A DNA stretch of 64,000 bases, from the NCBI GenBank assembly GCA_949710005.1, contig OX453274.1:13655859-13719858 (forward strand). The letters are read 5' to 3'. A program made the position numbers and the translations under genes. The DNA is from Ricordea florida. Taxonomy: Eukaryota; Cnidaria; Anthozoa; Corallimorpharia; Ricordeidae. Numbering within the stretch: the stretch's first letter is position 1; every line of letters begins with the position of its first letter. Shown piece after piece: positions 19,767 through 56,285 of the stretch. The notes under the pieces are model-generated. The model ran no database searches. It saw only the letters and a program-made list of their open reading frames with translations, and had not been told where the DNA came from.

Positions 19767-20081
19767 GTGTTCCTGAAGCAGCGGAACTGATTGACGTACC
19801 CAGTGAGGTGAAGGGTGATGAATTAATCTTGAGATGGAGTGAACCACCAAACAGTGGAGAAGAGATAACACAATACACTGTTTACAAAAGAACCGTGAAT
19901 GAAGCTGGTACAACAGGAGACTGGGAAGAAGTTGCTGTCATCAACGATCCTTCAGTTCGTGAATATACGATTCAGCTGAAGGAAGGCAATGAGTACGATA
20001 TTGTAGTGACTGCAACAAACATATTTGGTGAAGGATTAAGGGAAGAAGGAAATATTAAAAGGATCATTAAAGTAGTAACTG
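19767..20081 (+). CDS. R2 exon 6: second fibronectin type III domain
   Basis: This phase 1-1 exon encodes an FN3 domain: GVPEAAELIDVPSE, LILRWSEPPNSGEEITQYTV, YTIQLKEGNEYDIVVTATN and FGEGL. The acceptor is CATGCAG and the donor CTG/GTACGT. With the previous exon it makes a paired-FN3 membrane-proximal stalk, an arrangement also seen in Axl/Tyro3-type receptors. The kinase itself looks closer to FGFR/Tie types. Confidence 0.9.
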
Positions 20082-20462
20082 GTACGTACTTTGTGAGTGA
20101 GACGTGTTTAAAAACTCTAATCTCAGTAAAGTGCTCAGTTCGTTTACCCTTCGTAAAATAAATCCCATGATTATTCTTCACATAGTGCTTATATGACGCT
20201 ACAAAGAAAACACATTTTTAATACACACCATCAATTAACAATGAAGGGTGCACTCTGCACAATAAATAACTTACACAAAAAATTAAGCCATGTATTTTAA
20301 AATACAGCGGCCTGAAACGATGCAGAGATCAACGCTCAATTGATGATTAATTTGTAATTGTCTGCTTTAAGTTAACAGTCCAGGAAATATGACTTTGATG
20401 CATCTCAGTTGTATAAATAATAATTCGGTGGGTTTTTCATTTTAACTTTGTTCATTTTTCAG

Positions 20463-20495
20463 GACTCGACAATACTCATCAGAAAAAAGAAACAG
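20463..20495 (+). CDS. R2 exon 7: 33-nt microexon
   Basis: Flanked by TTTTTCAG and GTAAAA, this 33-nt exon keeps phase 1-1 and would add the eleven-residue polar insert GLDNTHQKKET between the FN3 pair and the transmembrane exon. Its length divisible by three makes it skippable without a frame change. It is identical in copy R2' at 28141-28173. Support is from splice consensus and phase only. Confidence 0.6.
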
Positions 20496-20876
20496 GTAAA
20501 ATACAGAGCTATTTTATTGCACAATAAGAACTGGATTATCGTTTCTTAAAGTTCCAGCAGAGGGGAAGATCTTTGGATTATACTTTATGACTTAAAGAAT
20601 TGCTTAGATGTAGAACGGCGATATCTCACTATCAAGTTTCAAATTTGAAAACGTCGCAATTTCCATCTTGAAAATTTGTCAATTGCAAACAGTGCTTAAC
20701 TAAGGCGGTAAAAGGATCGTTCGCCGTTCACGTTTGTGGGATTATGGCCACTCAATTGTCTACTAGTTCTCTCAAGACTTGAATCTGTGCACGCTCACAC
20801 ACGCGATAAATATGCACAGTAGGAATGCCTATGCAATACTAAGAAACCACCTTATTTAAACGGGTGTGCGTTTCAG

Positions 20877-20996
20877 ATTCAACTTGTAAAGAAGAGATCA
20901 CAAATCGTCACGCCGCTTATCCTGCTGTGATTGCATTTTTGCTGCTGGTTATCATTGTTCTCTGTGTAATACTTTGGAGACGTCGTAGGAGTCCAG
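20877..20996 (+). CDS. R2 exon 8: transmembrane segment
   Basis: This phase 1-1 exon encodes a short extracellular linker (DSTCKEEITNRHAA), a hydrophobic helix (AVIAFLLLVIIVLCVILW) and the basic stop-transfer cluster RRRRSP. This places the FN3 pair outside and the kinase inside. The acceptor is GTTTCAG and the donor CCAG/GTAACA. Confidence 0.88.
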
Positions 20997-21493
20997 GTAA
21001 CACGAGTCAATACTTTAAGATACCTCATCAACACCACTGTGGTGATATTCCAGATATTAAACTAGTTCATACTTAAAATTTTTGCTCCTTGTTCTACCCA
21101 TTAGAAGTTTCTTAATATTATTTATAAAAGGTTTACATCAAAAAGCAGAACAATTGTGCTCTTTTTATATCGACCTCATTCTGTTTTTCATAATACTTCT
21201 GTCGCACCCTTCTATTCAACCTTCAGACTCGTTACAGTTGCCAAAGCTCAACATTCTTCATTATAGATGACATCATTTTCTTCATTATTATTTTGCTTAT
21301 TTGCTATTTTTTCTTTTGAGTTAGTAAAGCTTAATAACCAGAATCCTAGGCACATTGAATCCTGCTGGGTATAGACAAACATTTTAAAAGGTCTGTGCAA
21401 TAGAGTTGCTATTAAGAACGAACACTGCAGATATTAACTACAAGATTAACTTGATAAATTGTCCAGGCTAATGTGCTTTTTGACTTTTTTCAG

Positions 21494-21512
21494 AGTTTAA
21501 AAGAGCAAATCG
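21494..21512 (+). CDS. R2 exon 9: 19-nt juxtamembrane microexon
   Basis: TTTTTTCAG precedes and GTGAGG follows. The reading from the previous phase-1 exon gives EFKRAN and leaves two bases, which the next candidate exon completes. The phases 1 to 2 to 0 link the transmembrane exon to the kinase exon at 21986 without a stop. Tiny exons of this kind can be false, so confidence is moderate. Confidence 0.45.
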
Positions 21513-21668
21513 GTGAGGATGAACTACGATTTTTGTTTACTCTGAAATTAGTAATTTAAAGTTAAGGTTGAATAAATGTACATTTCATGCCTTGCTATCG
21601 CGGCACATGGGCCAATGGAGACAGGTTATTGCAATTATTTAACTTTCTGTGTTTTCTTCAAACAAAAG

Positions 21669-21702
21669 AACATGTTCACGATGCGGAGAGATTATACTTA
21701 TG
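21669..21702 (+). CDS. R2 exon 10: 34-nt juxtamembrane exon
   Basis: This candidate exon runs from an acceptor CAAACAAAAG to the donor TATG/GTATGT. It takes phase 2 in and phase 0 out, the only combination that joins exon 9 to the phase-0 kinase exon. It encodes about eleven residues with a CSRC motif. The acceptor lacks a strong pyrimidine tract, so this is tentative. Confidence 0.4.
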
Positions 21703-21985
21703 GTATGTCTTATACCGTGGCCTATTTCTTGCTCTATTGACGAATGTTTAGTTCATTAATCACTTAGTATCGACTTCTGCTTATTAAATACCATTATCTA
21801 CTAAGGTAAATGATGATCATATCACTCATGAGGAAAGTGTATAGTTCGATGGAAAAGGAATCAACGGCTTAGCTTTCCGTTTTCTTGATCATTTAATATC
21901 TTATAAGACTTAATAAGTCTTATCGCGTAAGCTTGAACCTTAAAGAAATACATAAATAATCATTATTAAACCTTACAATCTGTAG

Positions 21986-22238
21986 AATTCCATGGCAGCA
22001 GAAGTTAGCATCCAGTCCCCAAGCCGTACACAGCCTGACAACTTTACTTACGAAACTCCAGAAAGCTCCGATTTCGTGTCACGTGACCCATCAACTAGAA
22101 GCTGGGAAATGAAGCGGCACCAAGTAGACATTATTAAAGTAATTGGTAAAGGCGCCTTCTCTCAAGTTGCCAAGGCAACAGCACGAGGCATAAGGGGGAA
22201 TAAAGAAGAGATCACGGTAGCAGTAAAAATGTTAAAAG
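21986..22238 (+). CDS. R2 exon 11: juxtamembrane and kinase glycine loop to beta-3
   Basis: The exon opens with a Ser/Pro-rich juxtamembrane segment (SIQSPSRTQPDNFTYE), then the kinase start: RHQVDIIKVIGKGAFSQV with the GxGxFxxV nucleotide-binding loop, and TVAVKMLKG carrying the beta-3 lysine. It enters in phase 0 and leaves in phase 1. The ATP-binding N-lobe is therefore intact at sequence level. Confidence 0.88.
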
Positions 22239-22480
22239 GTGAATAACTTTATCTCAGTGCCGGTAATTACAACGTAAAGTTGCAGATAGAATTGCTGAGC
22301 ATGTGTATACTAAGTAACTCAATGCATAATCATTTAAAGTTTCATTGTTGTTTACCTGTCTGAATTGTACAAAGCGCTCTTATTTTGATGACCAAGATAT
22401 ACAAGGTCTACCGTTTTGACCGAATAATTGGCAACAATTCTTAATGGCGAGTAAAGTGTTAACGCGTTTTTGTTGATCAG

Positions 22481-22591
22481 TGGATGCTCCTGAGTCAGAC
22501 AGGAAGGACCTGTTGTCAGAACTGGAACTGATGAAAAAACTGAAGCCTCTTCCTCATGTTATCAAGTTGATTGGATGCGTAACACAGTCTG
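22481..22591 (+). CDS. R2 exon 12: kinase alpha-C helix region
   Basis: This phase 1-1 exon encodes DAPESDRKDLLSELELMKKL, with the alpha-C glutamate in SELELM, followed by HVIKLIGCVTQS, the beta-4 segment seen in FGFR-like kinases. The acceptor is TTGATCAG and the donor TCTG/GTAAGT. There is no damage within the exon. Confidence 0.88.
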
Positions 22592-24243
22592 GTAAGTTGA
22601 CTCTGATGCTGCGTTAAAACAAATAACATACATTATCATATGACCCGTCCTGCTCCGCTCACGCGATTCCATAGAAAACTATAGTAAAGGCTGACGTGTG
22701 TAGGGCCGGAGGGGTTAACGTGAGTCGGTCAGGAAATACCCTTCCGGCCTTAGTGCGTCTCTACGGCTTTCTTGCGAAATGAAAAAAAAAAACAATAAAG
22801 AAAACGGAAATGAGAAAATAAGTCACGTTTTTCGAGGATTTGCGAATTTCTTGTAAAAATAAGGGAAAAATTTTTATTGTAGGATGTTTTCTTTCACTTT
22901 TCCCGCGCGCGCCAGGCTATCGCTTTCTATTAAGAATGAAAACAAACGTTTGAAATTTGCAAAACCTAGTCAGTGGCCATATAAGGAAATGCTTATTCAC
23001 TCCGGTAGCTAGGTCGGGACGGACGGGAATATATTACATATTAGATTTTTAGCCTTCTGGTTGGCTCACTCAGTCTCGTTTAACAGCTCATAGACATCAC
23101 TTAGACCTTATATGGGAAACAATTACGCCAAGTGATGTCAAGCTGAAAGATCTGGCAAAAATGGGAAGAGAAATGCAAATGGAACACATTACTGACAACG
23201 ACCAACGACGAAGAAAGCTATAATTTTCGATAGAAAGTTATTTCGGGTTACGTATCTGAAATTTTCTCACAAATAAAGAAAGGAATTCTAACTCTTCGTG
23301 CATCGAAATGTCCGAAGCACTGATAAACATTACACAACAAAAAGAACAATAAAGTCTACCTCTAAGATTCTCAAAACGGTTTCAAGTCCGTGTAGGAGTA
23401 GTTTTTCGGCGAAAGTGAGTGAATAAATGAGCAAAGAAGAACTTGGGTCAAGCCTCATGCAAGAATTTTTACACATCGCTAAGGAAACTTTCCTTTCCTT
23501 CCTGACCAAGGGTACTTTAATATTATCAATAGAAACTGTATCCAGTCTGTAATGGAGCACAATTAGCTTCACACATCCAGATCATAAATGCCATAATAGC
23601 AGTTACACCAAAACACTGGAAACGTTCTGGTAGAAACTTTTCTTTGCTCTCAGGCTGTGTCACATCGTGATCAAAGTTTTCCGCAGACGTTTTGCAACGG
23701 CAAAGCCCAGGTACATAATCAAACCTTATGCGCATTTTCAAAATTCCCCACCGCGGATTTAGCTCCTTCAGTTAGTTGGAGTTCAAATTAATTTTAAGTG
23801 ACTGTAATCGCTGTGCTGTAATGAGTCTTGCTTCAAAATCTTTTTATTCAGCAAAATTTGCAAACGGCCGGTGTGATTTCTTACGGCCTTGTTGCTGTTT
23901 TTGTAGCATCTACTTCCGGTCGTTTTGTAAAATTAAAACAAAATTCAATGGAATTTAGCTCCATCATAAATGATCAAAACGTCTAGAATTGAATGAAATT
24001 TCATAAAACAATTATTCCACTCTCACCTGTTGTAAATGAGATTGGTGATAGCCAACTCGGCGCTACGCGCTACGTTGACTATTTACCACCATGAATGCAA
24101 CGCGCGCTCATGGAGTAATTGTTAAATCAGTAATGCTTAATAAACAAACAGTAACTTATCATACCTCTAAATCAAAATTTGATAGTATTAAGTTTTGCGG
24201 CAAAACTTTCTCCTGATTAATCAAAAGGTCATGTTGCTTTCAG

Positions 24244-24365
24244 ATCCATCGCTTGTTCTCATTGAGTATGTGCCTTACGGTGATCTGCTGGGCTACTTGA
24301 GGAAGAGTCGAGGGCTCAATGACTTTGAAAGACAATACCTCAAAGACAATACCTCAAATTCTTAA
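24244..24365 (+). pseudogene. R2 exon 13: truncated kinase hinge exon ending in LINE-derived stop
   Basis: After GCTTTCAG the exon reads PSLVLIEYVPYGDLLGYLR, the beta-5/hinge/alpha-D region, then KSRGLND. Around 24324-24350 it changes into duplicated GACAATACCTCAAA words and then LINE sequence, reaching TAA at 24363-24365. No donor is seen before the stop. Everything normally following (alpha-E, HRD catalytic loop, DFG, APE) is absent. This break is shared by R2', so it happened before the 7.68-kb duplication. Confidence 0.8.
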
Positions 24366-24689
24366 AGAAAGACCGAAAAAAGCTTTTAAAAGATCACTAA
24401 AAGAAATGCTACTCGATATCTTTGAAACTGAAGACTCCTATATTGATGTGGATACGATCATCGTGAAAATGAAAAATTTAATTCTCTAGTCTGCTATTTT
24501 CATTTTATTTGATTTCTAAAATTTCACTTTAATATTGTCCTTGAACTTAACTAGAATAGTATCTCTTTAATGTCAAATATATATACTTATATAACGTCTA
24601 ATTTCTTTGTATTTGTCTAGTTTGTTGTAAATTATGTAGCCTGGCCTTCCTCGACTAGCCTCGCTAACCGCAGGCCAGTCCCATTGTAT
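24349..24689 (+). mobile_element. LINE 3'-end fragment, first copy (341 bp)
   Basis: This stretch is identical by eye to 25212-25552 (offset 863). It begins inside the LINE ORF (LKERPKKAFKRSLKEML), passes the ORF stop, and stops within the 3' UTR at CCCATTGTAT, before the polyadenylation signal and GTT tail present in the second copy. It lacks both natural ends, so it is not a simple insertion. It is fused directly to the truncated kinase exon through an ATACCTCAAA overlap. Confidence 0.85.
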
Positions 24690-25018
24690 GTTATATACAT
24701 AGAAACAATATTTCGATTGTTTCTATTCCTTATCGGCATACAGCTTTAAATGAAATTCTAATACTCAATGATACTCGCAAAAGTTTGAATATTATTTGGT
24801 TATGTGTATTTTGGAAGGGCAAGAACGGGACAGAAAAAAAGCTATTTTTTTTAACGTAAACCAATTTCCAGCTTAATTTCAGATAAAATCATAGTGTTGC
24901 ATTATAAACCTTTTCTCTGCACTGAAGTCTGTTTAAACAATTCGAAGTGATTAGAAAAATTGAGCTCTTGCTGGCTAAGCGGTGCATGTACCTTATCGAA
25001 TTTTCGCAAAAATTAGTC

Positions 25019-25595
25019 CATTTGTAGTCTTATGTATGATGTAAATAAAAACACTGCTCCGGATAATATTTTGAAACTCTTCTCTCGAATTTCTACTGTT
25101 CATACTTACAACACACGTGCCTCAACTTCTGAACATTTTTATACCAAAGAATCTCGACTCAATGTCAAACGAAATGCTTTTTCACGTGTTGGGGTCAAAA
25201 TTTGGAATGGGATACCTCAAATTCTTAAAGAAAGACCGAAAAAAGCTTTTAAAAGATCACTAAAAGAAATGCTACTCGATATCTTTGAAACTGAAGACTC
25301 CTATATTGATGTGGATACGATCATCGTGAAAATGAAAAATTTAATTCTCTAGTCTGCTATTTTCATTTTATTTGATTTCTAAAATTTCACTTTAATATTG
25401 TCCTTGAACTTAACTAGAATAGTATCTCTTTAATGTCAAATATATATACTTATATAACGTCTAATTTCTTTGTATTTGTCTAGTTTGTTGTAAATTATGT
25501 AGCCTGGCCTTCCTCGACTAGCCTCGCTAACCGCAGGCCAGTCCCATTGTATCTTTTGTTATATTTTCAAATTTCAATAAAGTTGTTGTTGTTGT
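25019..25595 (+). mobile_element. LINE 3' end with ORF C-terminus, 3' UTR and (GTT)n tail
   Basis: The open frame to 25352 reads a typical non-LTR ORF2 C-terminus (YNTRASTSEHFYTKESRLNV, FSRVGVKIWNGIPQ). A 3' UTR of about 240 bp follows, with AATAAA at 25576 and a terminal GTTGTTGTTGTTGT. The 5' end is truncated near 25019, as is usual for such insertions. It occupies the place where the kinase catalytic exons of the receptor would be expected. Confidence 0.85.
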
Positions 25596-25692
25596 CTGCA
25601 ATTAGTCCAAATAAGATTTCACCAAAAAACAGTAGTACAGTTAAAACGGAATCAACAAATGAATACTGGACCATTACACATTCTTGTTGCAG

Positions 25693-25733
25693 TTGGAGTT
25701 ATGGTGTTGTTCTTTACGAGATACTTACTGTGG
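25693..25733 (+). CDS. R2 exon: kinase alpha-F start (WSYGVVLYEILTVG)
   Basis: This short 41-nt exon follows TTGTTGCAG and is followed by GTAAGT, phase 2 in and phase 1 out. It encodes the subdomain IX motif WSYGVVLYE, normally preceded by an aspartate and by the APE helix; the upstream exons carrying those are missing. Its splice sites look functional. Confidence 0.8.
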
Positions 25734-25849
25734 GTAAGTTACTTATTGCATTATTCACGGCTACAGATTCATGAACCACATTAATTAGTGAAGTCATTGT
25801 ATGAATATCTTCAGTATGTCTTTGTATTACCTTGTTACTCGCATTCTAG

Positions 25850-25946
25850 GTGGAACTCCGTACCCGGATATTCATGGTCGTCAAATTGCTAATAAACTTC
25901 AAGAGGGATACCGGATGCCAAAACCACAACACGTTGAGAGCAAACT
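25850..25946 (+). CDS. R2 exon: kinase alpha-F/G region
   Basis: It encodes GGTPYPDIHGRQIANKLQEG then YRMPKP, the subdomain X block shared by FGFR, Ret and Tie kinases. It runs from phase 1 to phase 2, and the split leucine codon (CT/G) is completed by the next exon. Confidence 0.85.
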
Positions 25947-26081
25947 GTGAGTGTTGAATCCCACTATTTATGAGAAATGAAGGGGGAGGCAAGCCGTCCT
26001 AACGTAGACAACAATAAAGGCAAATTTTAGCACAGTTATTAACCAGCTCGTCTTTCTTCTTTATCCTGTGTTTGTATTTAG

Positions 26082-26181
26082 GTATCAGGTAATGCTGCAA
26101 TGCTGGCAGGAAAGTCCAAGGAATCGGCCAACATTTGCCAAACTGAAAGAAACGATGAAAGAAATGGAAAAGAACCATAGG
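26082..26181 (+). CDS. R2 exon: end of kinase C-lobe
   Basis: It encodes YQVMLQCWQESPRNRPTFAK and LKETMKEMEKNHR, covering subdomain XI with the conserved arginine of RPTF. It has the same length and phase as the R1 exon at 15-114. Confidence 0.87.
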
Positions 26182-26703
26182 GTAGGAAATATTTACTCTG
26201 ACGAAATTACTTTTGTGTAACTTTTTCTCATTCTCCTCCTCAGTTGAAGTTACTTTCGTCACAGCCGAAGTCTATGACCAGAAGTTCTTAAAAGCTAGAG
26301 CATCCGGCCCATACGTTTACCGTATTATAAATATTTATATAGAGTGCACTGATATAGAGGGCCTAATGTTATTTATTTATATACATTTCATGTTTAGTTT
26401 TGTTACTTTTTGTCGTTCCTTAGTCCCAGATTTGAGAAACAACCAAATGGCTAGGTATCGTGGTCCATCGTGATTGGCCATTGTGTTGGTTGCAAGCTTC
26501 ATTTTCAGTTAAGCTTATACTCTAAACTGCTGGTTTGTGAGTTGCCATTGTCAATGTCGTACTTCTTCTACCTCTTCAAGTTCGAAAGACTTAAAACTTT
26601 GAACAATACCTTAGCATTCACTCAGTTATTAGTTGTACTTTATCCAAATAGTATATATATCGCTATTTTTCCCAACTGATACGATGTTCGTTATTTTTTT
26701 TAG

Positions 26704-26772
26704 ACTTGTGTGAACCTCAAACAGTACGACAACAGTCTGTACGCTAATGTCAAAGATTTAGCCGATGGATGA
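26704..26772 (+). CDS. R2 last coding exon
   Basis: After a T-rich tract and TAG, the exon encodes a tail with QYDNSLYANV and ends at TGA. The tail has two tyrosines spaced like adaptor docking sites. A polyadenylation signal follows two bases after the stop. Confidence 0.85.
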   Translation, partial: TCVNLKQYDNSLYANVKDLADG

Positions 26773-26774
26773 GC

Positions 26775-26780
26775 AATAAA
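26775..26780 (+). terminator. AATAAA polyadenylation signal of R2
   Basis: AATAAA lies immediately after the TGA stop (GAGCAATAAAC), giving a very short 3' UTR if used. The same signal follows R2' at 34453-34458. Confidence 0.6.
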
Positions 26781-27172
26781 CAAAAAAAATTGTAATCTTC
26801 TTTTTGGAAGAAGAGGTTAAACTTTAGGTAAAAGTTTGTACGTATGCAATTCTTGAAGGCGCGCTTTTGTTCAAATATCCCTGCTTCGTTAGCGATTATT
26901 TTTGTACCATATTAATATAACTAGGAGTTTCAATGTGAAAGTAAGTTCTGGCGTTGAACATGAAAGAGGATGTGAGAGGCAACACGCTTTGGTAAGTATA
27001 CGCGGGATGCCTTTTAAAGACGTCTTTGAAAAGTTCATGCCAATGTTGCTGTCCCAGCTGCATGGGCGTTTGTATGTTTCCCTCCCTGGCGTATAGAAGC
27101 AATCCTTTCCAGTCTATCAAAAGAGAGCTTACAAAGCCAAACAACGTAAATAAAGTACACAGGGAGCGATTT

Positions 27173-27184: not shown

Positions 27185-30100
27185 GACGCACAAGGCCATC
27201 TATTTCCAAGTAATTGTGCAGTGAAGGCAAACAGCTTTTCACGCAGAGCAGCAAAACTTGAGCTTGCAGAAAATAATGTTTAGAGTCTTCAATCAAGAAG
27301 AATTATTCCTAGGTAAAAAAGAGCCGGAAAGGAAAGAAAGCAAGCTCAAGGCTTTATTCAAGCCGCACAATCTTAAACGCGATTACATGGGTGGCAGAAA
27401 CAGATTTTTGGTCCTAATAAATGCCATTTATTTTCCTCATGCAGGTGTTCCTGAAGCAGCGGAACTGATTGACGTACCCAGTGAGGTGAAGGGTGATGAA
27501 TTAATCTTGAGATGGAGTGAACCACCAAACAGTGGAGAAGAGATAACACAATACACTGTTTACAAAAGAACCGTGAATGAAGCTGGTACAACAGGAGACT
27601 GGGAAGAAGTTGCTGTCATCAACGATCCTTCAGTTCGTGAATATACGATTCAGCTGAAGGAAGGCAATGAGTACGATATTGTAGTGACTGCAACAAACAT
27701 ATTTGGTGAAGGATTAAGGGAAGAAGGAAATATTAAAAGGATCATTAAAGTAGTAACTGGTACGTACTTTGTGAGTGAGACGTGTTTAAAAACTCTAATC
27801 TCAGTAAAGTGCTCAGTTCGTTTACCCTTCGTAAAATAAATCCCATGATTATTCTTCACATAGTGCTTATATGACGCTACAAAGAAAACACATTTTTAAT
27901 ACACACCATCAATTAACAATGAAGGGTGCACTCTGCACAATAAATAACTTACACAAAAAATTAAGCCATGTATTTTAAAATACAGCGGCCTGAAACGATG
28001 CAGAGATCAACGCTCAATTGATGATTAATTTGTAATTGTCTGCTTTAAGTTAACAGTCCAGGAAATATGACTTTGATGCATCTCAGTTGTATAAATAATA
28101 ATTCGGTGGGTTTTTCATTTTAACTTTGTTCATTTTTCAGGACTCGACAATACTCATCAGAAAAAAGAAACAGGTAAAATACAGAGCTATTTTATTGCAC
28201 AATAAGAACTGGATTATCGTTTCTTAAAGTTCCAGCAGAGGGGAAGATCTTTGGATTATACTTTATGACTTAAAGAATTGCTTAGATGTAGAACGGCGAT
28301 ATCTCACTATCAAGTTTCAAATTTGAAAACGTCGCAATTTCCATCTTGAAAATTTGTCAATTGCAAACAGTGCTTAACTAAGGCGGTAAAAGGATCGTTC
28401 GCCGTTCACGTTTGTGGGATTATGGCCACTCAATTGTCTACTAGTTCTCTCAAGACTTGAATCTGTGCACGCTCACACACGCGATAAATATGCACAGTAG
28501 GAATGCCTATGCAATACTAAGAAACCACCTTATTTAAACGGGTGTGCGTTTCAGATTCAACTTGTAAAGAAGAGATCACAAATCGTCACGCCGCTTATCC
28601 TGCTGTGATTGCATTTTTGCTGCTGGTTATCATTGTTCTCTGTGTAATACTTTGGAGACGTCGTAGGAGTCCAGGTAACACGAGTCAATACTTTAAGATA
28701 CCTCATCAACACCACTGTGGTGATATTCCAGATATTAAACTAGTTCATACTTAAAATTTTTGCTCCTTGTTCTACCCATTAGAAGTTTCTTAATATTATT
28801 TATAAAAGGTTTACATCAAAAAGCAGAACAATTGTGCTCTTTTTATATCGACCTCATTCTGTTTTTCATAATACTTCTGTCGCACCCTTCTATTCAACCT
28901 TCAGACTCGTTACAGTTGCCAAAGCTCAACATTCTTCATTATAGATGACATCATTTTCTTCATTATTATTTTGCTTATTTGCTATTTTTTCTTTTGAGTT
29001 AGTAAAGCTTAATAACCAGAATCCTAGGCACATTGAATCCTGCTGGGTATAGACAAACATTTTAAAAGGTCTGTGCAATAGAGTTGCTATTAAGAACGAA
29101 CACTGCAGATATTAACTACAAGATTAACTTGATAAATTGTCCAGGCTAATGTGCTTTTTGACTTTTTTCAGAGTTTAAAAGAGCAAATCGGTGAGGATGA
29201 ACTACGATTTTTGTTTACTCTGAAATTAGTAATTTAAAGTTAAGGTTGAATAAATGTACATTTCATGCCTTGCTATCGCGGCACATGGGCCAATGGAGAC
29301 AGGTTATTGCAATTATTTAACTTTCTGTGTTTTCTTCAAACAAAAGAACATGTTCACGATGCGGAGAGATTATACTTATGGTATGTCTTATACCGTGGCC
29401 TATTTCTTGCTCTATTGACGAATGTTTAGTTCATTAATCACTTAGTATCGACTTCTGCTTATTAAATACCATTATCTACTAAGGTAAATGATGATCATAT
29501 CACTCATGAGGAAAGTGTATAGTTCGATGGAAAAGGAATCAACGGCTTAGCTTTCCGTTTTCTTGATCATTTAATATCTTATAAGACTTAATAAGTCTTA
29601 TCGCGTAAGCTTGAACCTTAAAGAAATACATAAATAATCATTATTAAACCTTACAATCTGTAGAATTCCATGGCAGCAGAAGTTAGCATCCAGTCCCCAA
29701 GCCGTACACAGCCTGACAACTTTACTTACGAAACTCCAGAAAGCTCCGATTTCGTGTCACGTGACCCATCAACTAGAAGCTGGGAAATGAAGCGGCACCA
29801 AGTAGACATTATTAAAGTAATTGGTAAAGGCGCCTTCTCTCAAGTTGCCAAGGCAACAGCACGAGGCATAAGGGGGAATAAAGAAGAGATCACGGTAGCA
29901 GTAAAAATGTTAAAAGGTGAATAACTTTATCTCAGTGCCGGTAATTACAACGTAAAGTTGCAGATAGAATTGCTGAGCATGTGTATACTAAGTAACTCAA
30001 TGCATAATCATTTAAAGTTTCATTGTTGTTTACCTGTCTGAATTGTACAAAGCGCTCTTATTTTGATGACCAAGATATACAAGGTCTACCGTTTTGACCG

Positions 30101-32026
30101 AATAATTGGCAACAATTCTTAATGGCGAGTAAAGTGTTAACGCGTTTTTGTTGATCAGTGGATGCTCCTGAGTCAGACAGGAAGGACCTGTTGTCAGAAC
30201 TGGAACTGATGAAAAAACTGAAGCCTCTTCCTCATGTTATCAAGTTGATTGGATGCGTAACACAGTCTGGTAAGTTGACTCTGATGCTGCGTTAAAACAA
30301 ATAACATACATTATCATATGACCCGTCCTGCTCCGCTCACGCGATTCCATAGAAAACTATAGTAAAGGCTGACGTGTGTAGGGCCGGAGGGGTTAACGTG
30401 AGTCGGTCAGGAAATACCCTTCCGGCCTTAGTGCGTCTCTACGGCTTTCTTGCGAAATGAAAAAAAAAAACAATAAAGAAAACGGAAATGAGAAAATAAG
30501 TCACGTTTTTCGAGGATTTGCGAATTTCTTGTAAAAATAAGGGAAAAATTTTTATTGTAGGATGTTTTCTTTCACTTTTCCCGCGCGCGCCAGGCTATCG
30601 CTTTCTATTAAGAATGAAAACAAACGTTTGAAATTTGCAAAACCTAGTCAGTGGCCATATAAGGAAATGCTTATTCACTCCGGTAGCTAGGTCGGGACGG
30701 ACGGGAATATATTACATATTAGATTTTTAGCCTTCTGGTTGGCTCACTCAGTCTCGTTTAACAGCTCATAGACATCACTTAGACCTTATATGGGAAACAA
30801 TTACGCCAAGTGATGTCAAGCTGAAAGATCTGGCAAAAATGGGAAGAGAAATGCAAATGGAACACATTACTGACAACGACCAACGACGAAGAAAGCTATA
30901 ATTTTCGATAGAAAGTTATTTCGGGTTACGTATCTGAAATTTTCTCACAAATAAAGAAAGGAATTCTAACTCTTCGTGCATCGAAATGTCCGAAGCACTG
31001 ATAAACATTACACAACAAAAAGAACAATAAAGTCTACCTCTAAGATTCTCAAAACGGTTTCAAGTCCGTGTAGGAGTAGTTTTTCGGCGAAAGTGAGTGA
31101 ATAAATGAGCAAAGAAGAACTTGGGTCAAGCCTCATGCAAGAATTTTTACACATCGCTAAGGAAACTTTCCTTTCCTTCCTGACCAAGGGTACTTTAATA
31201 TTATCAATAGAAACTGTATCCAGTCTGTAATGGAGCACAATTAGCTTCACACATCCAGATCATAAATGCCATAATAGCAGTTACACCAAAACACTGGAAA
31301 CGTTCTGGTAGAAACTTTTCTTTGCTCTCAGGCTGTGTCACATCGTGATCAAAGTTTTCCGCAGACGTTTTGCAACGGCAAAGCCCAGGTACATAATCAA
31401 ACCTTATGCGCATTTTCAAAATTCCCCACCGCGGATTTAGCTCCTTCAGTTAGTTGGAGTTCAAATTAATTTTAAGTGACTGTAATCGCTGTGCTGTAAT
31501 GAGACTTGCTTCAAAATCTTTTTATTCAGCAAAATTTGCAAACGGCCGGTGTGATTTCTTACGGCCTTGTTGCTGTTTTTGTAGCATCTACTTCCGGTCG
31601 TTTTGTAAAATTAAAACAAAATTCAATGGAATTTAGCTCCATCATAAATGATCAAAACGTCTAGAATTGAATGAAATTTCATAAAACAATTATTCCACTC
31701 TCACCTGTTGTAAATGAGATTGGTGATAGCCAACTCGGCGCTACGCGCTACGTTGACTATTTACCACCATGAATGCAACGCGCGCTCATGGAGTAATTGT
31801 TAAATCAGTAATGCTTAATAAACAAACAGTAACTTATCATACCTCTAAATCAAAATTTGATAGTATTAAGTTTTGCGGCAAAACTTTCTCCTGATTAATC
31901 AAAAGGTCATGTTGCTTTCAGATCCATCGCTTGTTCTCATTGAGTATGTGCCTTACGGTGATCTGCTGGGCTACTTGAGGAAGAGTCGAGGGCTCAATGA
32001 CTTTGAAAGACAATACCTCAAAGACA

Positions 32027-32367
32027 ATACCTCAAATTCTTAAAGAAAGACCGAAAAAAGCTTTTAAAAGATCACTAAAAGAAATGCTACTCGATATCTT
32101 TGAAACTGAAGACTCCTATATTGATGTGGATACGATCATCGTGAAAATGAAAAATTTAATTCTCTAGTCTGCTATTTTCATTTTATTTGATTTCTAAAAT
32201 TTCACTTTAATATTGTCCTTGAACTTAACTAGAATAGTATCTCTTTAATGTCAAATATATATACTTATATAACGTCTAATTTCTTTGTATTTGTCTAGTT
32301 TGTTGTAAATTATGTAGCCTGGCCTTCCTCGACTAGCCTCGCTAACCGCAGGCCAGTCCCATTGTAT
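32027..32367 (+). mobile_element. LINE 3'-end fragment, copy in unit B
   Basis: This is the counterpart of 24349-24689, repeated at 32890-33230 within the same unit. It is fused to the truncated kinase exon exactly as in unit A. Confidence 0.85.
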
Positions 32368-32696
32368 GTTATATACATAGAAACAATATTTCGATTGTTT
32401 CTATTCCTTATCGGCATACAGCTTTAAATGAAATTCTAATACTCAATGATACTCGCAAAAGTTTGAATATTATTTGGTTATGTGTATTTTGGAAGGGCAA
32501 GAACGGGACAGAAAAAAAGCTATTTTTTTTAACGTAAACCAATTTCCAGCTTAATTTCAGATAAAATCATAGTGTTGCATTATAAACCTTTTCTCTGCAC
32601 TGAAGTCTGTTTAAACAATTCGAAGTGATTAGAAAAATTGAGCTCTTGCTGGCTAAGCGGTGCATGTACCTTATCGAATTTTCGCAAAAATTAGTC

Positions 32697-33273
32697 CATT
32701 TGTAGTCTTATGTATGATGTAAATAAAAACACTGCTCCGGATAATATTTTGAAACTCTTCTCTCGAATTTCTACTGTTCATACTTACAACACACGTGCCT
32801 CAACTTCTGAACATTTTTATACCAAAGAATCTCGACTCAATGTCAAACGAAATGCTTTTTCACGTGTTGGGGTCAAAATTTGGAATGGGATACCTCAAAT
32901 TCTTAAAGAAAGACCGAAAAAAGCTTTTAAAAGATCACTAAAAGAAATGCTACTCGATATCTTTGAAACTGAAGACTCCTATATTGATGTGGATACGATC
33001 ATCGTGAAAATGAAAAATTTAATTCTCTAGTCTGCTATTTTCATTTTATTTGATTTCTAAAATTTCACTTTAATATTGTCCTTGAACTTAACTAGAATAG
33101 TATCTCTTTAATGTCAAATATATATACTTATATAACGTCTAATTTCTTTGTATTTGTCTAGTTTGTTGTAAATTATGTAGCCTGGCCTTCCTCGACTAGC
33201 CTCGCTAACCGCAGGCCAGTCCCATTGTATCTTTTGTTATATTTTCAAATTTCAATAAAGTTGTTGTTGTTGT
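32697..33273 (+). mobile_element. LINE 3' end with (GTT)n tail, copy in unit B
   Basis: This is the counterpart of 25019-25595, with the same open C-terminal frame (32710-33030), 3' UTR and tail. Confidence 0.85.
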
Positions 33274-34452
33274 CTGCAATTAGTCCAAATAAGATTTCAC
33301 CAAAAAACAGTAGTACAGTTAAAACGGAATCAACAAATGAATACTGGACCATTACACATTCTTGTTGCAGTTGGAGTTATGGTGTTGTTCTTTACGAGAT
33401 ACTTACTGTGGGTAAGTTACTTATTGCATTATTCACGGCTACAGATTCATGAACCACATTAATTAGTGAAGTCATTGTATGAATATCTTCAGTATGTCTT
33501 TGTATTACCTTGTTACTCGCATTCTAGGTGGAACTCCGTACCCGGATATTCATGGTCGTCAAATTGCTAATAAACTTCAAGAGGGATACCGGATGCCAAA
33601 ACCACAACACGTTGAGAGCAAACTGTGAGTGTTGAATCCCACTATTTATGAGAAATGAAGGGGGAGGCAAGCCGTCCTAACGTAGACAACAATAAAGGCA
33701 AATTTTAGCACAGTTATTAACCAGCTCGTCTTTCTTCTTTATCCTGTGTTTGTATTTAGGTATCAGGTAATGCTGCAATGCTGGCAGGAAAGTCCAAGGA
33801 ATCGGCCAACATTTGCCAAACTGAAAGAAACGATGAAAGAAATGGAAAAGAACCATAGGGTAGGAAATATTTACTCTGACGAAATTACTTTTGTGTAACT
33901 TTTTCTCATTCTCCTCCTCAGTTGAAGTTACTTTCGTCACAGCCGAAGTCTATGACCAGAAGTTCTTAAAAGCTAGAGCATCCGGCCCATACGTTTACCG
34001 TATTATAAATATTTATATAGAGTGCACTGATATAGAGGGCCTAATGTTATTTATTTATATACATTTCATGTTTAGTTTTGTTACTTTTTGTCGTTCCTTA
34101 GTCCCAGATTTGAGAAACAACCAAATGGCTAGGTATCGTGGTCCATCGTGATTGGCCATTGTGTTGGTTGCAAGCTTCATTTTCAGTTAAGCTTATACTC
34201 TAAACTGCTGGTTTGTGAGTTGCCATTGTCAATGTCGTACTTCTTCTACCTCTTCAAGTTCGAAAGACTTAAAACTTTGAACAATACCTTAGCATTCACT
34301 CAGTTATTAGTTGTACTTTATCCAAATAGTATATATATCGCTATTTTTCCCAACTGATACGATGTTCGTTATTTTTTTTAGACTTGTGTGAACCTCAAAC
34401 AGTACGACAACAGTCTGTACGCTAATGTCAAAGATTTAGCCGATGGATGAGC

Positions 34453-34458
34453 AATAAA
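34453..34458 (+). terminator. AATAAA polyadenylation signal of R2'
   Basis: Same position relative to the TGA stop as in R2. Confidence 0.55.
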
Positions 34459-35026
34459 CAAAAAAAATTGTAATCTTCTTTTTGGAAGAAGAGGTTAAAC
34501 TTTAGGTAAAAGTTTGTACGTATGCAATTCTTGAAGGCGCGCTTTTGTTCAAATATCCCTGCTTCGTTAGCGATTATTTTTGTACCATATTAATATAACT
34601 AGGAGTTTCAATGTGAAAGTAAGTTCTGGCGTTGAACATGAAAGAGGATGTGAGAGGCAACACGCTTTGGTAAGTATACGCGGGATGCCTTTTAAAGACG
34701 TCTTTGAAAAGTTCATGCCAATGTTGCTGTCCCAGCTGCATGGGCGTTTGTATGTTTCCCTCCCTGGCGTATAGAAGCAATCCTTTCCAGTCTATCAAAA
34801 GAGAGCTTACAAAGCCAAACAACGTAAATAAAGTACACAGGGAGCGATTTTGTAATTTGGATATTTCTTTATGGAGGGAAACTTGTTGGGCTGTTCCCGT
34901 CCACGACTGGAATTGCCTTAAGCAACACACCGAATTATTTCTGAAATGAAATTTGTTAGTTTACTAAAATTGTTATGATCCCAGTTCATTTCACAAAGTC
35001 AGTAACTACAACAGTCTATTATATAG

Positions 35027-50157: not shown

Positions 50158-50589
50158 TATTTACATCCCAGAAGACTGAGAATAGAAAATATTAATGTAA
50201 TCCTTAAACTGATGGAGAACAGTACAGATATATAACTGGTGTTTGTGGTATAATTGTATTAATACCGTACTTTCATCTGGACAAAAAAACATCATTCTTC
50301 AATAGTTTTTAGAGTTGTTTTCCACCGAGACTGGGTGTTCAATGAGCTTAAATGGCTTTTACACATTCCCTCAGTCTGAGCTCATCAGACTACATCACTT
50401 TATATCCTGATCTATTCTTGGTTTTCACCTGACGTGACCGATGCATCCATATATGGCCATCCGCCATGTTGGAGCCCCTCGAGTGTGAAATGTATGTAAA
50501 GCAAAGGCCACTTCTACAGTGTTATTTAGTTTGATTCGTATGTTTTTGAGTTTAAAATTAATTTCTTCGAGGAAAAAGCCGGTAAGGAG

Positions 50590-50901
50590 ATGGAAAAAAA
50601 CATTCCTGTGCTTTCTGAATGCACCAAAAACCTGGAAGGCCACGTAAAGGAACGGTATATCCAGAAAATATCTGTGGTCGGAGTGGATCCGGCAAGCCTT
50701 CCAAGCGAACAGTTTGATTCAGAAAATCTTCCGCCGATAGAATCAACCGATTTGCTCAGCTATTACTATACAAAGGAGCAGTTCAAGGCTTTCAAAAGTT
50801 TAGAAGCTTTTAATCAGGTGGCCTCCGGATTTGTAACGTCCGTTCAAGGTTCGATGGTCTCTGGAAAGTTTGTTGTCATGGCGAAAGTTCGTCATTCACA
50901 G
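50590..50901 (+). CDS. Exon of a SWIM-zinc-finger-type, coral-expanded gene (fragment)
   Basis: The frame reads RYIQKISVVGVDPASLPSEQ, LPPIESTDLLSYYYTKEQFK and SGFVTSVQGSMVSGKFVVMA KVRHSQ. From memory this resembles the region just before the SWIM zinc finger in a multicopy anthozoan protein family. The expected donor after HSQ reads GCAAAA instead of GT, so splicing may be lost or use a GC donor, and no SWIM exon (CxCnCxH) follows. Likely a gene fragment carried in repeats. Confidence 0.5.
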
Positions 50902-51239
50902 GCAAAAATTTACCATTTAATCCTATGCAACAGAATTTGGGTGTCAATTCATCTAGCATTACAAACTTTTACAATTGGTTACGGTGGTTGGGGTTTGTCT
51001 TGGTTTTTTTAACCTTAATGCAGTCAAACTCTCACAGAACTTTGAGATTTGCTGATTTTTTATTTCTGATTTATAAGCAATTTAGATAGCTCAATTAGAT
51101 TGATGACCAGTTTTATCAAACGTCAGTTGTAGTCTACAGAAGTCAGGATGCTTTGCGGCCAACCTGTTTTCCAGATTCGAAAATCCAGAAAACTACAAAA
51201 TGGAAGTAATCCAGCTCTGATTTGCAATCAATAAATAAA

Positions 51240-51430
51240 GAATATCTGATTTTCAGACTATAGTTAACCCGATATTTGAAATCAGAAATCAGAAATCTGA
51301 AATCAGAAATCAGAATCCCGAAACCAGAATTCAGAATTCACAAGTTAGAAACCAGAAATCGTAAATCAGAAATCAGAAGTCGAAATTTCTGAAAACGTGA
51401 AATTTAAAATTGAGAAATCAGAAATCTAAA
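51240..51430. repeat. Subterminal ATCAGA-type repeat array in the foldback arm
   Basis: About a dozen imperfect copies of AAATCAGA / GAATTCAGA occur here. The mirrored array lies at 52320-52480, and equivalent arrays are in the other two copies. Such arrays often serve as transposase-binding sites; that role is inference. Confidence 0.75.
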
Positions 51431-51555
51431 AACTGGATTTCCGAAATGCCACCTGTAATATCCAATTCCGTTATTCTCGTTTTATCTCAGTTTGCGATGT
51501 CAATATTGCAAAAGTGAATCGGAAAACTCTCCAAAATTTCCCTGCCGGGGGTGGG

Positions 51556-51563
51556 TATAAATA
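51556..51563 (+). promoter_or_regulatory. Inward TATA box in left arm, copy 1
   Basis: TATAAATA lies about 155 bp before the ATG of the 98-residue ORF and points towards it. The same motif is in the right arm (52191-52198) in opposite orientation. Equivalent sites exist in copies 2 and 3. Confidence 0.5.
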
Positions 51564-51718
51564 GGCGTTTACTTCCGGTGGTAACTTTTAGCCTGACCCC
51601 ACCCCAACAAGCGAAATTATCTCCCCTCTACAGGAGGAGGGGACATAATCATACCCATTTCGGACCAAAGGACAGTTTCACGTAATTTCTTTGTGTGCAG
51701 TCGAACACTTCCACCAAA

Positions 51719-52015
51719 ATGGACAACTGCGAGGTAACATTCGGCGAGTTGACTCGCACCGTGGCTACGAAGAATGTTACTATCAGTGCTCTTGTTGCAC
51801 TTTTCAACATCCATAACGCCCAAACATGCTGGCTACGTGGTCTTTCCGGCACGTGCGTTTTTGCAGATGAAAATGCATCGTTTCCTCAACTGGAAAGTTT
51901 CGGCGTATATGAATTGGACGTTAGTCGAGTTAGCGAGATCAGAAACGCGAAGCGAAATTACGAATCCTCCTCCTTAACCCCTAAAGAAGCAATGGTACTC
52001 ATCTTGTGGTTGTAG
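51719..52015 (+). CDS. 98-residue ORF of the foldback element, copy 1 (unknown family)
   Basis: The protein starts MDNCEVTFGELTRTVATKNV, contains FNIHNAQTCWLRGLSGTC and FPQLESFGVYELD, and ends EAMVLILWL. It belongs to no family I know and has no obvious transmembrane segment or catalytic motif. The frame is open upstream to 51695, but the ATG at 51719 follows AAAATGG and is the start shared with the diverged copy 3. A polyadenylation signal follows 10 bp after the stop. Conservation of an open frame across three copies, one diverged, suggests it is or was coding. Confidence 0.5.
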   Translation: MDNCEVTFGELTRTVATKNVTISALVALFNIHNAQTCWLRGLSGTCVFADENASFPQLESFGVYELDVSRVSEIRNAKRNYESSSLTPKEAMVLILWL

Positions 52016-52025
52016 AGCAGCTAAC

Positions 52026-52031
52026 AATAAA
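52026..52031 (+). terminator. AATAAA after the foldback ORF, copy 1
   Basis: CTAACAATAAAGC lies just after the stop codon, completing a TATA-ORF-polyadenylation unit of about 450 bp. Confidence 0.5.
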
Positions 52032-52981
52032 GCTATAGAGAACATTCGATTCAGTAATGTTTTCGAGAAGTTGCGGGAATATGCCTTCTGCCGTTCCTTT
52101 TGCTCCCTCCCCCTCTAAGTTTAATTCTATCGGAAGTGCAAAATATTCACCCCTTCCCCCCTTAAAAGAGGGGTACCGGAAGTAAACGCGTATTTATACC
52201 CACCCCCGGCAGGGAAATTTTAAAGAGTTTTCCGATTCATTTTTGCAATATTGACATCGCGAACTGAGATAAACCGAGAATAACGGAATTGGATATTACA
52301 GGTGACATTTCGGAAATCCAGGTTTAGAATTCTGATTTCTCAATTTTAAATTTCACGTTTTCAGAAATTTCGACTTCTGAGTTCTGATTTACGATTTCTG
52401 GTTTCTAACTTGTGAATTCTGAATTCTGGTTTCGGAATTCTGATTTCTGATTTCTGATTTTTGATTTTAAATATCAGGTTAACTATAGTCTGAAAATCAG
52501 ATATTCTATATTTATAAATCGGAAATCAGAGCTGGATTACTTCCATTTTGTAGTTTTCTGGATTTTAGAATCTGGAAAACAGGTTGGCCGCAAAGCATCC
52601 TGACTTACAGCAAGGCTAGGCTCACATACATTCATGATTGGTCATTCATGCACCGCCCGTGCTAAATACATGTAATAACAAAAACAATCACATCTATAAG
52701 TGATTACTTTATATTTTTTTCTGAATATATTTTTTGGATAACCAAAAACATAGCATGTTAACCTTAACAAGCTATGCATAATGTTCTTTAGAATTTCAGT
52801 AAGTCAAATAGTTATAAAAAAGTATTAGATTAATTGTTTGGCTAGTAGATTTGTTGGCCTAACAATGAATATCTCAAAACAGTCAATTATCACTATGACT
52901 TTCCTCCCGAAGGCATATTGAAAACACATTGGCATGGTATGCCACAACTGTCCTCGTTCTGGCCAGTAAACAAGATAAAAC

Positions 52982-54446
52982 AGTCAGGATGCTTTGCGGC
53001 CAACCTGTTTTCCAGATTCGAAAATCCAGAAAACTACAAAATGGAAGTAATCCAGCTCTGATTTGCAATCAATAAATAAAGAATATCTGATTTTCAGACT
53101 ATAGTTAACCCGATATTTGAAATCAGAAATCAGAAATCTGAAATTAGAAATCAGAATTCCGAAACCAGAATTCAGAATTCACAAGTTAGAAACCAGAAAT
53201 CGTAAATCAGAAATCAGAAGTCGAAATTTCTGAAAACGTGAAATTTAAAATTGAGAAATCAGAAATCTAAAAACTGGATTTCCGAAATGCCACCTGTAAT
53301 ATCCAATTCCGTTATTCTCGTTTTATCTCAGTTTGCGATGTCAATATTGCAAAAGTGAATCGGAAAACTCTCCAAAATTTCCCTGCCGGGGGTGGGTATA
53401 AATAGGCGTTTACTTCCGGTGGTAACTTTTAGCCTGACCCCACCCCAACAAGCGAAATTATCTCCCCTCTACAGGAGGAGGGGACATAATCATACCCATT
53501 TCGGACCAAAGGACAGTTTCACGTAATTTCTTTGTGTGCAGTCGAACACTTCCACCAAAATGGACAACTGCGAGGTAACATTCGGCGAGTTGACTCGCAC
53601 CGTGGCTACGAAGAATGTTACTATCAGTGCTCTTGTTGCACTTTTCAACATCCATAACGCCCAAACATGCTGGCTACGTGGTCTTTCCGGCACGTGCGTT
53701 TTTGCAGATGAAAATGCATCGTTTCCTCAACTGGAAAGTTTCGGCGTATATGAATTGGACGTTAGTCGAGTTAGCGAGATCAGAAACGCGAAGCGAAATT
53801 ACGAATCCTCCTCCTTAACCCCTAAAGAAGCAATGGTACTCATCTTGTGGTTGTAGAGCAGCTAACAATAAAGCTATAGAGAACATTCGATTCAGTAATG
53901 TTTTCGAGAAGTTGCGGGAATATGCCTTCTGCCGTTCCTTTTGCTCCCTCCCCCTCTAAGTTTAATTCTATCGGAAGTGCAAAATATTCACCCCTTCCCC
54001 CCTTAAAAGAGGGGTACCGGAAGTAAACGCGTATTTATACCCACCCCCGGCAGGGAAATTTTAAAGAGTTTTCCGATTCATTTTTGCAATATTGACATCG
54101 CGAACTGAGATAAACCGAGAATAACGGAATTGGATATTACAGGTGACATTTCGGAAATCCAGGTTTAGAATTCTGATTTCTCAATTTTAAATTTCACGTT
54201 TTCAGAAATTTCGACTTCTGAGTTCTGATTTACGATTTCTGGTTTCTAACTTGTGAATTCTGAATTCTGGTTTCGGAATTCTGATTTCTGATTTCTGATT
54301 TTTGATTTTAAATATCAGGTTAACTATAGTCTGAAAATCAGATATTCTATATTTATAAATCGGAAATCAGAGCTGGATTACTTCCATTTTGTAGTTTTCT
54401 GGATTTTAGAATCTGGAAAACAGGTTGGCCGCAAAGCATCCTGACT
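52982..54446 (+). mobile_element. Foldback transposon copy 2
   Basis: This is a direct copy of 51141-52605 with the same arms, inward TATA boxes and ORF. It was created with its spacer as part of a tandem duplication rather than by a separate insertion, because the spacer is duplicated too. Confidence 0.9.
53560..53856 (+). CDS. 98-residue ORF of the foldback element, copy 2
   Basis: The translation is identical to copy 1 (51719-52015), followed by the same AATAAA. No independent evidence of function. Confidence 0.5.
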   Translation: MDNCEVTFGELTRTVATKNVTISALVALFNIHNAQTCWLRGLSGTCVFADENASFPQLESFGVYELDVSRVSEIRNAKRNYESSSLTPKEAMVLILWL

Positions 54447-54822
54447 TACAGCAAGGCTAGGCTCACATACATTCATGATTGGTCATTCATGCACCGCCCG
54501 TGCTAAATACATGTAATAACAAAAACAATCACATCTATAAGTGATTACTTTATATTTTTTTCTGAATATATTTTTTGGATAACCAAAAACATAGCATGTT
54601 AACCTTAACAAGCTATGCATAATGTTCTTTAGAATTTCAGTAAGTCAAATAGTTATAAAAAAGTATTAGATTAATTGTTTGGCTAGTAGATTTGTTGGCC
54701 TAACAATGAATATCTCAAAACAGTCAATTATCACTATGACTTTCCTCCCGAAGGCATATTGAAAACACATTGGCATGGTATGCCACAACTGTCCTCGTTC
54801 TGGCCAGTAAACAAGATAAAAC

Positions 54823-56285
54823 AGTCAGGATGCTTTGCGGCCAACCTGTTTTCCAGATTCGAAAATCCAGAAAACTACAAAATGGAAGTAATCCAGCTCT
54901 GATTTGCAATCAATAAATAAAGAATATCTGATTTTCAGACTATAGTTAACTCGATATTTGAAATCAGAAATCCGAAATCAGAAATCAGAATTCCGAAACC
55001 AGAATTCAGAATTCACAAGTTACAAACCAGAAATCGCACATCAGAAATCAGAAGTCGAAATTTATGAAAATTAGATATTTAAAATTGAGAAATCAGAATT
55101 TTAAAACTGGATTTCCGAAATGCAACCTGTATTATCCAATTCCGTTATTCTTGGTTTATCTCAGTTCGCGATGTCAATATTGCAAAAATGAATCGGAAAA
55201 CTCTTTAAAATTTTCCTGCCGGGGGTGGGTATAAATACGAGTTTACTTCCGGTACCTCTCTCTTTTAAGCGGAGGAGGGGTGAATATTTTGCACTTCCGA
55301 TAGAATTAAACTTAGTGGGGGAGGGAGCGAAAGGAACGGCAGAAAGCATATTCCCGCAACTTTTCAAAAACATTATTGAATCGAATGTTCTTTATAGCTT
55401 TATTGTTAGCTGTTCTACAACCACAAGATGAGTACCATTGCTTCTTTAGGGGTTAAGGAGGAGGATTCGTAATTTCGCTTCGCGTTTCTGATCTCGCTAA
55501 CTCCACTAGCGTCCAATTCATATACGCCGAAACTTTCCAGTTGAGGAAACGATGCATTTTCATTTGCAAAAACGTACGTGCCGGAAAGAACACGTAGCCA
55601 GCATGTTTGGGCGTTATGGATGTTGAAAAGTGCCACATGAGCACTGATAGTAACATTCTTCGTAGCCACGGTGCGAGTCAACTCGCCGAACGTTACCTCG
55701 CAGTTGTCCATTTGTTTGTCCAAGTGTTTGACTGCACACAAAGAAATTACGTGAAAACTGTCCTTTGGTGCAAAATGGGTATGATTATGTCCCCTCCTCC
55801 CGTAGAGGGGAGATAATTTCGCTTGTTGGGGTGGGGTCAGGCTAAAAGTTACCACCGGAAGAAAACGCGTATTTATACCCACCCCCGGCAGGGAAATTTT
55901 AAAGAGTTTTCCGATTCATTTTTGCAATATTGACATCGCAAACTGAGATAAACCGAGAATAACGGAATTGGATATTACGGGTGGAATTTCGGAAATCCAG
56001 TTTTTAGATTTCTGATTTCTCAATTTTAAATTTCGTATTTTCAGAAATTTCGACTTCTGATTTCTGATTTACGATTTCTGGTTTCTAACTTGTGAATTCT
56101 GAATTCTGGTTTCGGAATTCTGATTTCTGATTTCTGATTTTTGATTTCAAATATCAGGTTAACTATAGTCTGAAAATCAGATATTCTATATTTAAGAATC
56201 GGAAATCAGAGCTGGATTACTTCCATTTTGTAGTTTTCTGGATTTTAGAATTTTGATAACAGATTGGCCGCAAAGCATCCTGACT
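54823..56285 (-). mobile_element. Foldback transposon copy 3 (inverted, diverged)
   Basis: It has the same terminal sequences and arms, but the central ORF and AATAAA lie on the minus strand. It differs from copies 1 and 2 at scattered positions, including four or more residues of the ORF. The right end abuts an unrelated open frame read on the minus strand (56286-56423), which it interrupts. Confidence 0.85.
55415..55711 (-). CDS. 98-residue ORF of the foldback element, copy 3
   Basis: It reads MDNCEVTFGELTRTVATKNV then HVALFNIHNAQTCWLRVLSG and ends EAMVLILWL. The frame has stayed open despite nucleotide divergence from copies 1 and 2. Upstream the frame is open to 55882, but without an ATG before 55711 near a TATA box. 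AATAAA is at 55404-55399. Confidence 0.5.
   Translation of the reverse strand: MDNCEVTFGELTRTVATKNVTISAHVALFNIHNAQTCWLRVLSGTYVFANENASFPQLESFGVYELDASGVSEIRNAKRNYESSSLTPKEAMVLILWL

Follow-up and report, generated by a model that had tools for sequence, protein, structure and literature searches.

The 64,000 bp window analyzed here, a stretch of the Ricordea florida genome (GenBank assembly GCA_949710005.1, contig OX453274.1, positions 13,655,859 to 13,719,858 of the forward strand), contains three elements of 1465, 1465 and 1463 bp, each with inverted arms of about 440 bp and an open reading frame (ORF) of 98 codons, and raises the question of where this ORF comes from and whether it serves the element. 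The initial annotation, made from the sequence alone, described a foldback transposon with a self-contained transcription unit of unknown family. The explanation that we consider probable is a non-autonomous long-arm transposon that carries a transduplicated gene fragment and is moved by an enzyme encoded elsewhere. An apparently orphan transposon protein would then be explained as likely gene-fragment cargo, and the family would represent a case, in what appears to be an animal genome, of an inverted-repeat element that multiplies a piece of a gene along with promoter-like and polyadenylation signals.

Searching the genome assembly (538 Mb, 48 contigs) at the protein level with the ORF identifies 92 match places (E-value up to 1), several of which represent fragments of a single broken copy; 13 of the 92 are open over their full length. 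The 98-residue form is found in only part of the family and is a shortened one because in several copies the frame extends beyond the common part, through an acidic stretch to a tail rich in lysine. Distant relatives, aligned from the start codon, are found at two loci, C5:12952364 (47% identity) and C8:18465820 (41%), both of which contain a longer exon with the same start and a like acidic and basic tail, to which C5 adds another 90 codons or so. The C5 and C8 tails are matched by that of a longer transposon copy with E = 6e-8 and 8e-5, respectively (search space of two sequences, no composition correction), and the homology between the element and the C5-type exon covers approximately the first 125 codons of the exon. 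The C5 exon ends at a splice-donor-like GTGAGT, with a phase-compatible acceptor 484 bp on (4 of the 11 AGs tested fit the phase), and the exon past this acceptor encodes a RING finger (zf-RING_5, E = 1.9e-6, 28.2 bits compared with the Pfam cut-off of 27.9); a predicted splice would join exon 1 to the RING exon. In the genome, the RING exon matches only itself, i.e., it is single-copy, and for the second half of exon 1 the only matches are the C5 and C8 loci. Judging by sequence similarity, the ORF is related, in shortened form, to exon 1 of a putative gene that continues into a RING-finger exon, and is not an orphan, which modifies the initial annotation of a self-contained unit of unknown family. 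Its N-terminal domain still lacks a family name: searches of Pfam, PHROGs and NCBIfam return nothing above the curated cut-offs (the best matches are UPF0047, E = 0.043, and PRK14813, E = 0.16), solved structures give chance-level matches only, and two predicted structures (mean predicted local distance difference test scores of 42.5 and 48.4) are too poor for a structure search. Among 10 pattern matches in viral contigs and 46 in genome contigs, no bacterial, archaeal or viral relative of the ORF is confirmed.

The RING-type gene locus (L075, C5:12951137-12954517) has foldback fragments on either side, at C5:12950173 and C5:12957392, which could be related to a capture or be there by chance. 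By eye, the last residues of the ORF weakly resemble the end of the frame at the C8 locus.

The genome copy count, which the initial annotation had proposed as a check, bears out a repeated family. A 22-base terminal pattern (up to three mismatches) has 127 matches (62 + 65; 100 of the 127 were listed), far beyond chance given that the same pattern read backwards has none (0 + 0), and a DNA search yields at least 161 matching pieces, with 40 of 96 candidates scored. The elements end in AGTC..GACT, with a terminal sequence written as AGTCAGGATG, AGTCAGGATGC or AGTCAGGATGCTTTGCGG. Complete copies with both ends and distinct flank pairs number 24, two of them being the tandem duplicate in the window; exact target-site duplications adjoin AGTC..GACT in 15 (10 of 6 bp and 5 of 5 bp) and are absent in nine, compared with a mean of 0.7 and a maximum of 5 of 24 in 2000 shuffles of the right flanks (the count covers elements of 1300-2100 bp at loci other than L059-L062 and L072). 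The three window copies all belong to the nine, including copy 1, which was scored as having no exact duplication, with TACAG near both ends and an extra base at the left. Among 20 complete copies (190 pairs, window copy 2 left out), the mean pairwise divergence is 5.7% and 5.5% in the two arms, 8.9% in the 5' flank, 7.5% in the ORF and 8.9% in the 3' part; the arms are the most conserved part, as should be expected of an element moved in trans. The element contains only short ORFs, and the 98-codon ORF has no Pfam match, so that no transposase of its own is found in it. This is a mobile, non-autonomous, long-inverted-repeat ('foldback-type') DNA transposon family, and the initial annotation was right in this respect, with long inverted arms, many copies and duplications of 5-6 bp.

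At three loci (L056, L057 and L058, on C3, C6 and C14), the same damaged foldback copy is found inside a repeat of at least about 8 kb that is approximately 99% identical on the three chromosomes; this repeat is another large mobile unit or a duplicated one.

The comparison of the window ORF with the C5 exon over 81 codons reveals 25, 27 and 57 differences at codon positions 1, 2 and 3, respectively, and this excess at third positions indicates that the sequence was once under protein-level selection; none is visible among the transposon copies, where the corresponding differences, summed over pairs, are 733, 823 and 541. The ratio of nonsynonymous to synonymous substitution (dN/dS) among copies is 1.05, with a wide codon bootstrap interval of 0.61-2.33 (18 copies, after 5 of 23 with frame damage were dropped), and 0.86 on all 23 frames, in a set that favors longer frames (23 of the 33 distinct transposon frames, with at least 80 codons; the 10 shorter ones were dropped). 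The mean synonymous distance to the exon is not computable given that at least one pair is saturated. Frame-breaking indels, of a length that is not a multiple of three, are present in the ORF of 8 of 19 copies compared with copy 1. The ORF copies thus change as neutral passengers would, and the ORF is more probably ordinary cargo than a new protein that functions. The initial annotation had suggested a small DNA-binding or silencing-related protein and had named a dN/dS near 1 as an outcome that would refute it; with the ratio close to 1, albeit within a wide interval and in a set biased to longer frames, and with many copies broken, a functional protein of this kind is not supported.

Under the scenario that we favor, a transposase or integrase encoded elsewhere would recognize the AGTC..GACT ends and move the element, with an insertion that duplicates 5-6 bp of the target in most of the complete copies. 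The stretch between the arms, which is homologous to the exon adjoining the RING-finger exon at one locus, would have been captured from the RING gene or from a lost paralog, a transduplication similar to that in Pack-type elements; its transcription may be made possible by the TATA box and AATAAA. In the form present in the window, the acidic and basic tail is gone and 98 codons are left, with no protein selection detectable among copies.

Several observations weigh against this scenario. The direction of transfer, from host to transposon, is a candidate only, with the genome of one species behind it. One in-frame stop is present in each of the two exon copies, C5 and C8, and the RING-type gene may be broken in this assembly; furthermore, no DNA likeness between the element and these two loci was found beyond the ORF. 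Weak selection among the transposon copies is compatible with the dN/dS estimates. Protein identity to the exon is about 45% and the homology looks old, yet many frames are open, whereas a neutral ORF should have been destroyed if the capture is as old as this identity suggests; either a closer source paralog has been lost, or the ORF was selected inside the element until recently. This combination is the best argument that the ORF once had a function in the element or that a closer source gene has been lost. If the frame was indeed selected inside the element, the family would be an unusual non-autonomous transposon that uses its gene cargo.

A further point against it comes from the search for an autonomous partner, which took in 4 kb around each of seven lone ends along with two short elements and a stretch of 9.6 kb; frames of at least 90 codons were listed, and nine of these were scanned. 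Among the frames scanned at the seven lone ends, no transposase was found where a partner would carry one, nor was the longer autonomous relative with the same ends that the initial annotation had envisaged. Moving inward from the lone ends, the resemblance to the element is lost after 148-534 bp; at L064, L065 and L069, the loss falls close to the inner edge of the arm, which is what an element with another interior would give, and an autonomous partner with a different interior may be present at these three loci. Beyond the lone ends lie retroelement pieces (L064 and L066) and, at L065, a frame for a rhodopsin-type receptor; at L067-L069, with one frame each of L067 and L069 scanned, nothing was recognized. 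The receptor frame, like the fibronectin type III stretches in the window, fits an animal genome. A piece of an IS1595-type transposase lies about 1 kb outside a mini-copy of approximately 308 bp (L063). The 9.6 kb stretch is a foldback copy with another inverted-repeat insertion that contains an ORF resembling those of long interspersed nuclear elements (LINEs).

At L072:1073-9016, a foldback copy is interrupted by a 7.9 kb insertion that has inverted repeats of about 420 bp starting near TTATGGCGGTCCATTTCCGCC and contains a LINE-like ORF of 1290 codons.

The alternative that fares best, although it is clearly less probable than captured cargo, is that the ORF is an accessory gene of the element itself, active until recently, for example as a regulator of mobility, with the RING-gene exon being a host relative or donated by the transposon. 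The concentration of differences from the exon at third codon positions shows that the frame was selected at some time, the ORF has a TATA box and AATAAA of its own, 13 of the 92 matches remain full-length and open, and the ORF has diverged slightly less than its flanks; against this, the dN/dS among copies is about 1, frame-breaking indels are frequent, and it is the arms rather than the ORF that are conserved. A related but doubtful possibility is that the element carried a working truncated relative of the RING protein, consisting of the N-terminal domain without the RING, which interfered with the host pathway of that protein and thereby aided the spread of the element, and that selection was relaxed only in the latest burst. 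It is similarly improbable, if not slightly more so, that the ORF is what is left of a larger transposase, as the initial annotation had considered, with the full version acting as the autonomous partner and the RING gene being a domesticated relative. The longer copies and the C5 and C8 exons do show that the 98-residue form is shortened, and L064, L065 and L069 leave room for an autonomous partner, but the Pfam search finds nothing above the cut-off for either half of exon 1 and no catalytic domain, the second half of exon 1 is present at only two loci and the RING exon at one, and no link to a transposase was found.

Least probable, and largely refuted, is the origin of the element from an internally deleted Polinton (Maverick) moved by the Polinton integrase: the arms of several hundred bp, the 6 bp duplications (characteristic of Polintons according to the available text of PMC10045372, and found here in 10 of the 24 copies, with 5 bp in five) and the abundance of Polintons in this genome are shared features, but the ends differ, the window family has no Polinton genes, and the Polintons sit in foldback copies as insertions. 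Two far-apart pairs of foldback ends (C1:14424763-14442887 and C2:3544612-3561574) enclose stretches of 17-18 kb with Polinton-type genes, and each enclosed Polinton brings inverted repeats and a target duplication of its own and interrupts a foldback copy that is otherwise complete, so that a Polinton origin was rejected in favor of nested insertions, for which the choice of widely spaced ends selects. In the C2 stretch, Pfam recognizes an integrase (rve, E = 3.1e-9) and a packaging ATPase of the A32 type (E = 1.9e-11), along with a capsid match that stays below the cut-off; the C1 stretch is related to it at the DNA level. The large first ORF, which Pfam and PHROGs did not name, presumably encodes a family B polymerase, judging by its motifs. 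The C2 Polinton has inverted repeats of 409 bp at 98.8% identity and a CCCCT or TCCCCT duplication inside the foldback copy; at C1, the Polinton repeats are inside a TA-flanked element that is itself inside a foldback copy, and three further Polinton loci (one end each) agree with the C2 end. Altogether, the Polinton ends at five loci are ACTACTATRTAAGCG (four) or AGTAGTATG (one), unlike AGTCAGGATG.

The genome contains at least 123 open Polinton-type integrase frames, which are stop-free and 93-100% identical to the query (G000, e.g., C2:3550035-3551006), from 5810 first-look candidates; apparently, there has been a large, recent Polinton expansion. The TA-flanked element with CAGTCGAACCTCGATTATCCGGAC ends that is interrupted by a Polinton (L059, about 1160-1350, and L060, about 7734-8185) is one that we take to be pogo/Tigger-like.

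Target-site duplications are 9 bp long in FB, 7 bp in Galileo and 8-11 bp in Mutator. The window family, with its duplications of 5-6 bp, differs from these elements and does not have the 7-9 bp length of FB or the P superfamily, and no transposase common to it and FB, Galileo or Mutator was found. As far as the accessible descriptions of foldback-type elements go (Drosophila FB, Galileo and Tetris, and the Mutator/Foldback element Tm1), the shared features are long inverted arms, internal short repeats and dispersed copies; in the window family, the arms of about 440 bp contain ATCAGAA runs. Pack-TYPE elements (Pack-MULE and others) are described in plants, in the part of PMC8903248 available, as non-autonomous DNA transposons with host coding sequence. 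The non-autonomous state is shared with them and host coding cargo possibly so, given the homology to an exon that adjoins a RING-finger exon; this homology amounts to only 41-47% protein identity, to a possibly broken gene that is diverged rather than near-identical, and the window family differs also in its foldback arms. In the available text of PMC10045372, IS3EU and GingerRoot have 6 bp target duplications, and their ends are TA..TA (occasionally TG..CA in GingerRoot) as opposed to AGTC..GACT. The CMITE family of coral miniature inverted-repeat transposable elements is likewise non-autonomous and found also in tandem arrays, but these elements are about 100 bp long, with arms of 13-14 bp and TTAA duplications (accessible part of PMC2872659). 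No description of the element was found in the available text of the literature, including PMC2836005, a scope outside which Repbase and Dfam lie, so that this is not evidence that the family is unpublished.

Within the window (Table 1), the structural description in the initial annotation, i.e., the sizes, the arms with ATCAGA runs and inward TATAAATA, the ORF and the close AATAAA, proves accurate. The left and right arms match over 439 bp with about 94% identity. In copy 1, TATAAATA starts at element position 416, and its complement is found at 1051, with a second one in the right arm at 1369; ATCAGAA is present seven times in the left arm and its complement five times in the right arm; the ORF spans element positions 579-875, and AATAAA is at 886, 10 bp past the stop codon. 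A script located the runs of ATCAGA, the inward-facing TATA boxes and the nearby AATAAA in copy 1; copies 2 and 3 show these features on inspection of their sequence. Because copies 1 and 2 differ at only 2 of 1465 positions and are followed by identical 376 bp spacers (0 differences), they represent one tandem duplication rather than two independent insertions. The ORF of the inverted copy 3 is open, as initially noted, with 6 of 98 residues changed.

Table 1. Positions of the foldback elements and their parts in the window
Feature	Position	Strand	Length
Foldback element copy 1 (AGTC...GACT ends)	51141..52605	+	1465 bp
Left inverted arm, copy 1 (with ATCAGA runs and an inward TATAAATA at 51556)	51141..51579	+	
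98-codon ORF of copy 1; relative of the first exon of the putative RING-finger gene, with shortened tail	51719..52015	+	
AATAAA 3' of the copy 1 stop codon	52026..52031	+	
Right inverted arm, copy 1 (TATAAATA in inverted orientation at 52191 and 52509)	52175..52605	-	
Spacer; exact repeat at 54447-54822	52606..52981	n/a	376 bp
Foldback element copy 2 (differs from copy 1 at 2 positions)	52982..54446	+	1465 bp
98-codon ORF of copy 2	53560..53856	+	
Foldback element copy 3, inverted, about 94% identical	54823..56285	-	1463 bp
98-codon ORF of copy 3	55415..55711	-	

About 130 bp to the left of copy 1, the window contains an ORF (50530-51012) that is a distant relative of the frame L064:1639-2106 (32% identity over 92 residues, E = 2e-7 in a single comparison), located on the inner side of a lone foldback end; neither of the two matches Pfam, and their likeness reflects a shared neighbor or chance. 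Elsewhere in the window, a direct duplication of 7666 bp with 99.99% identity (19507-27172 and 27185-34850), which includes a fibronectin type III coding stretch, is either a recent duplication or an assembly artifact.

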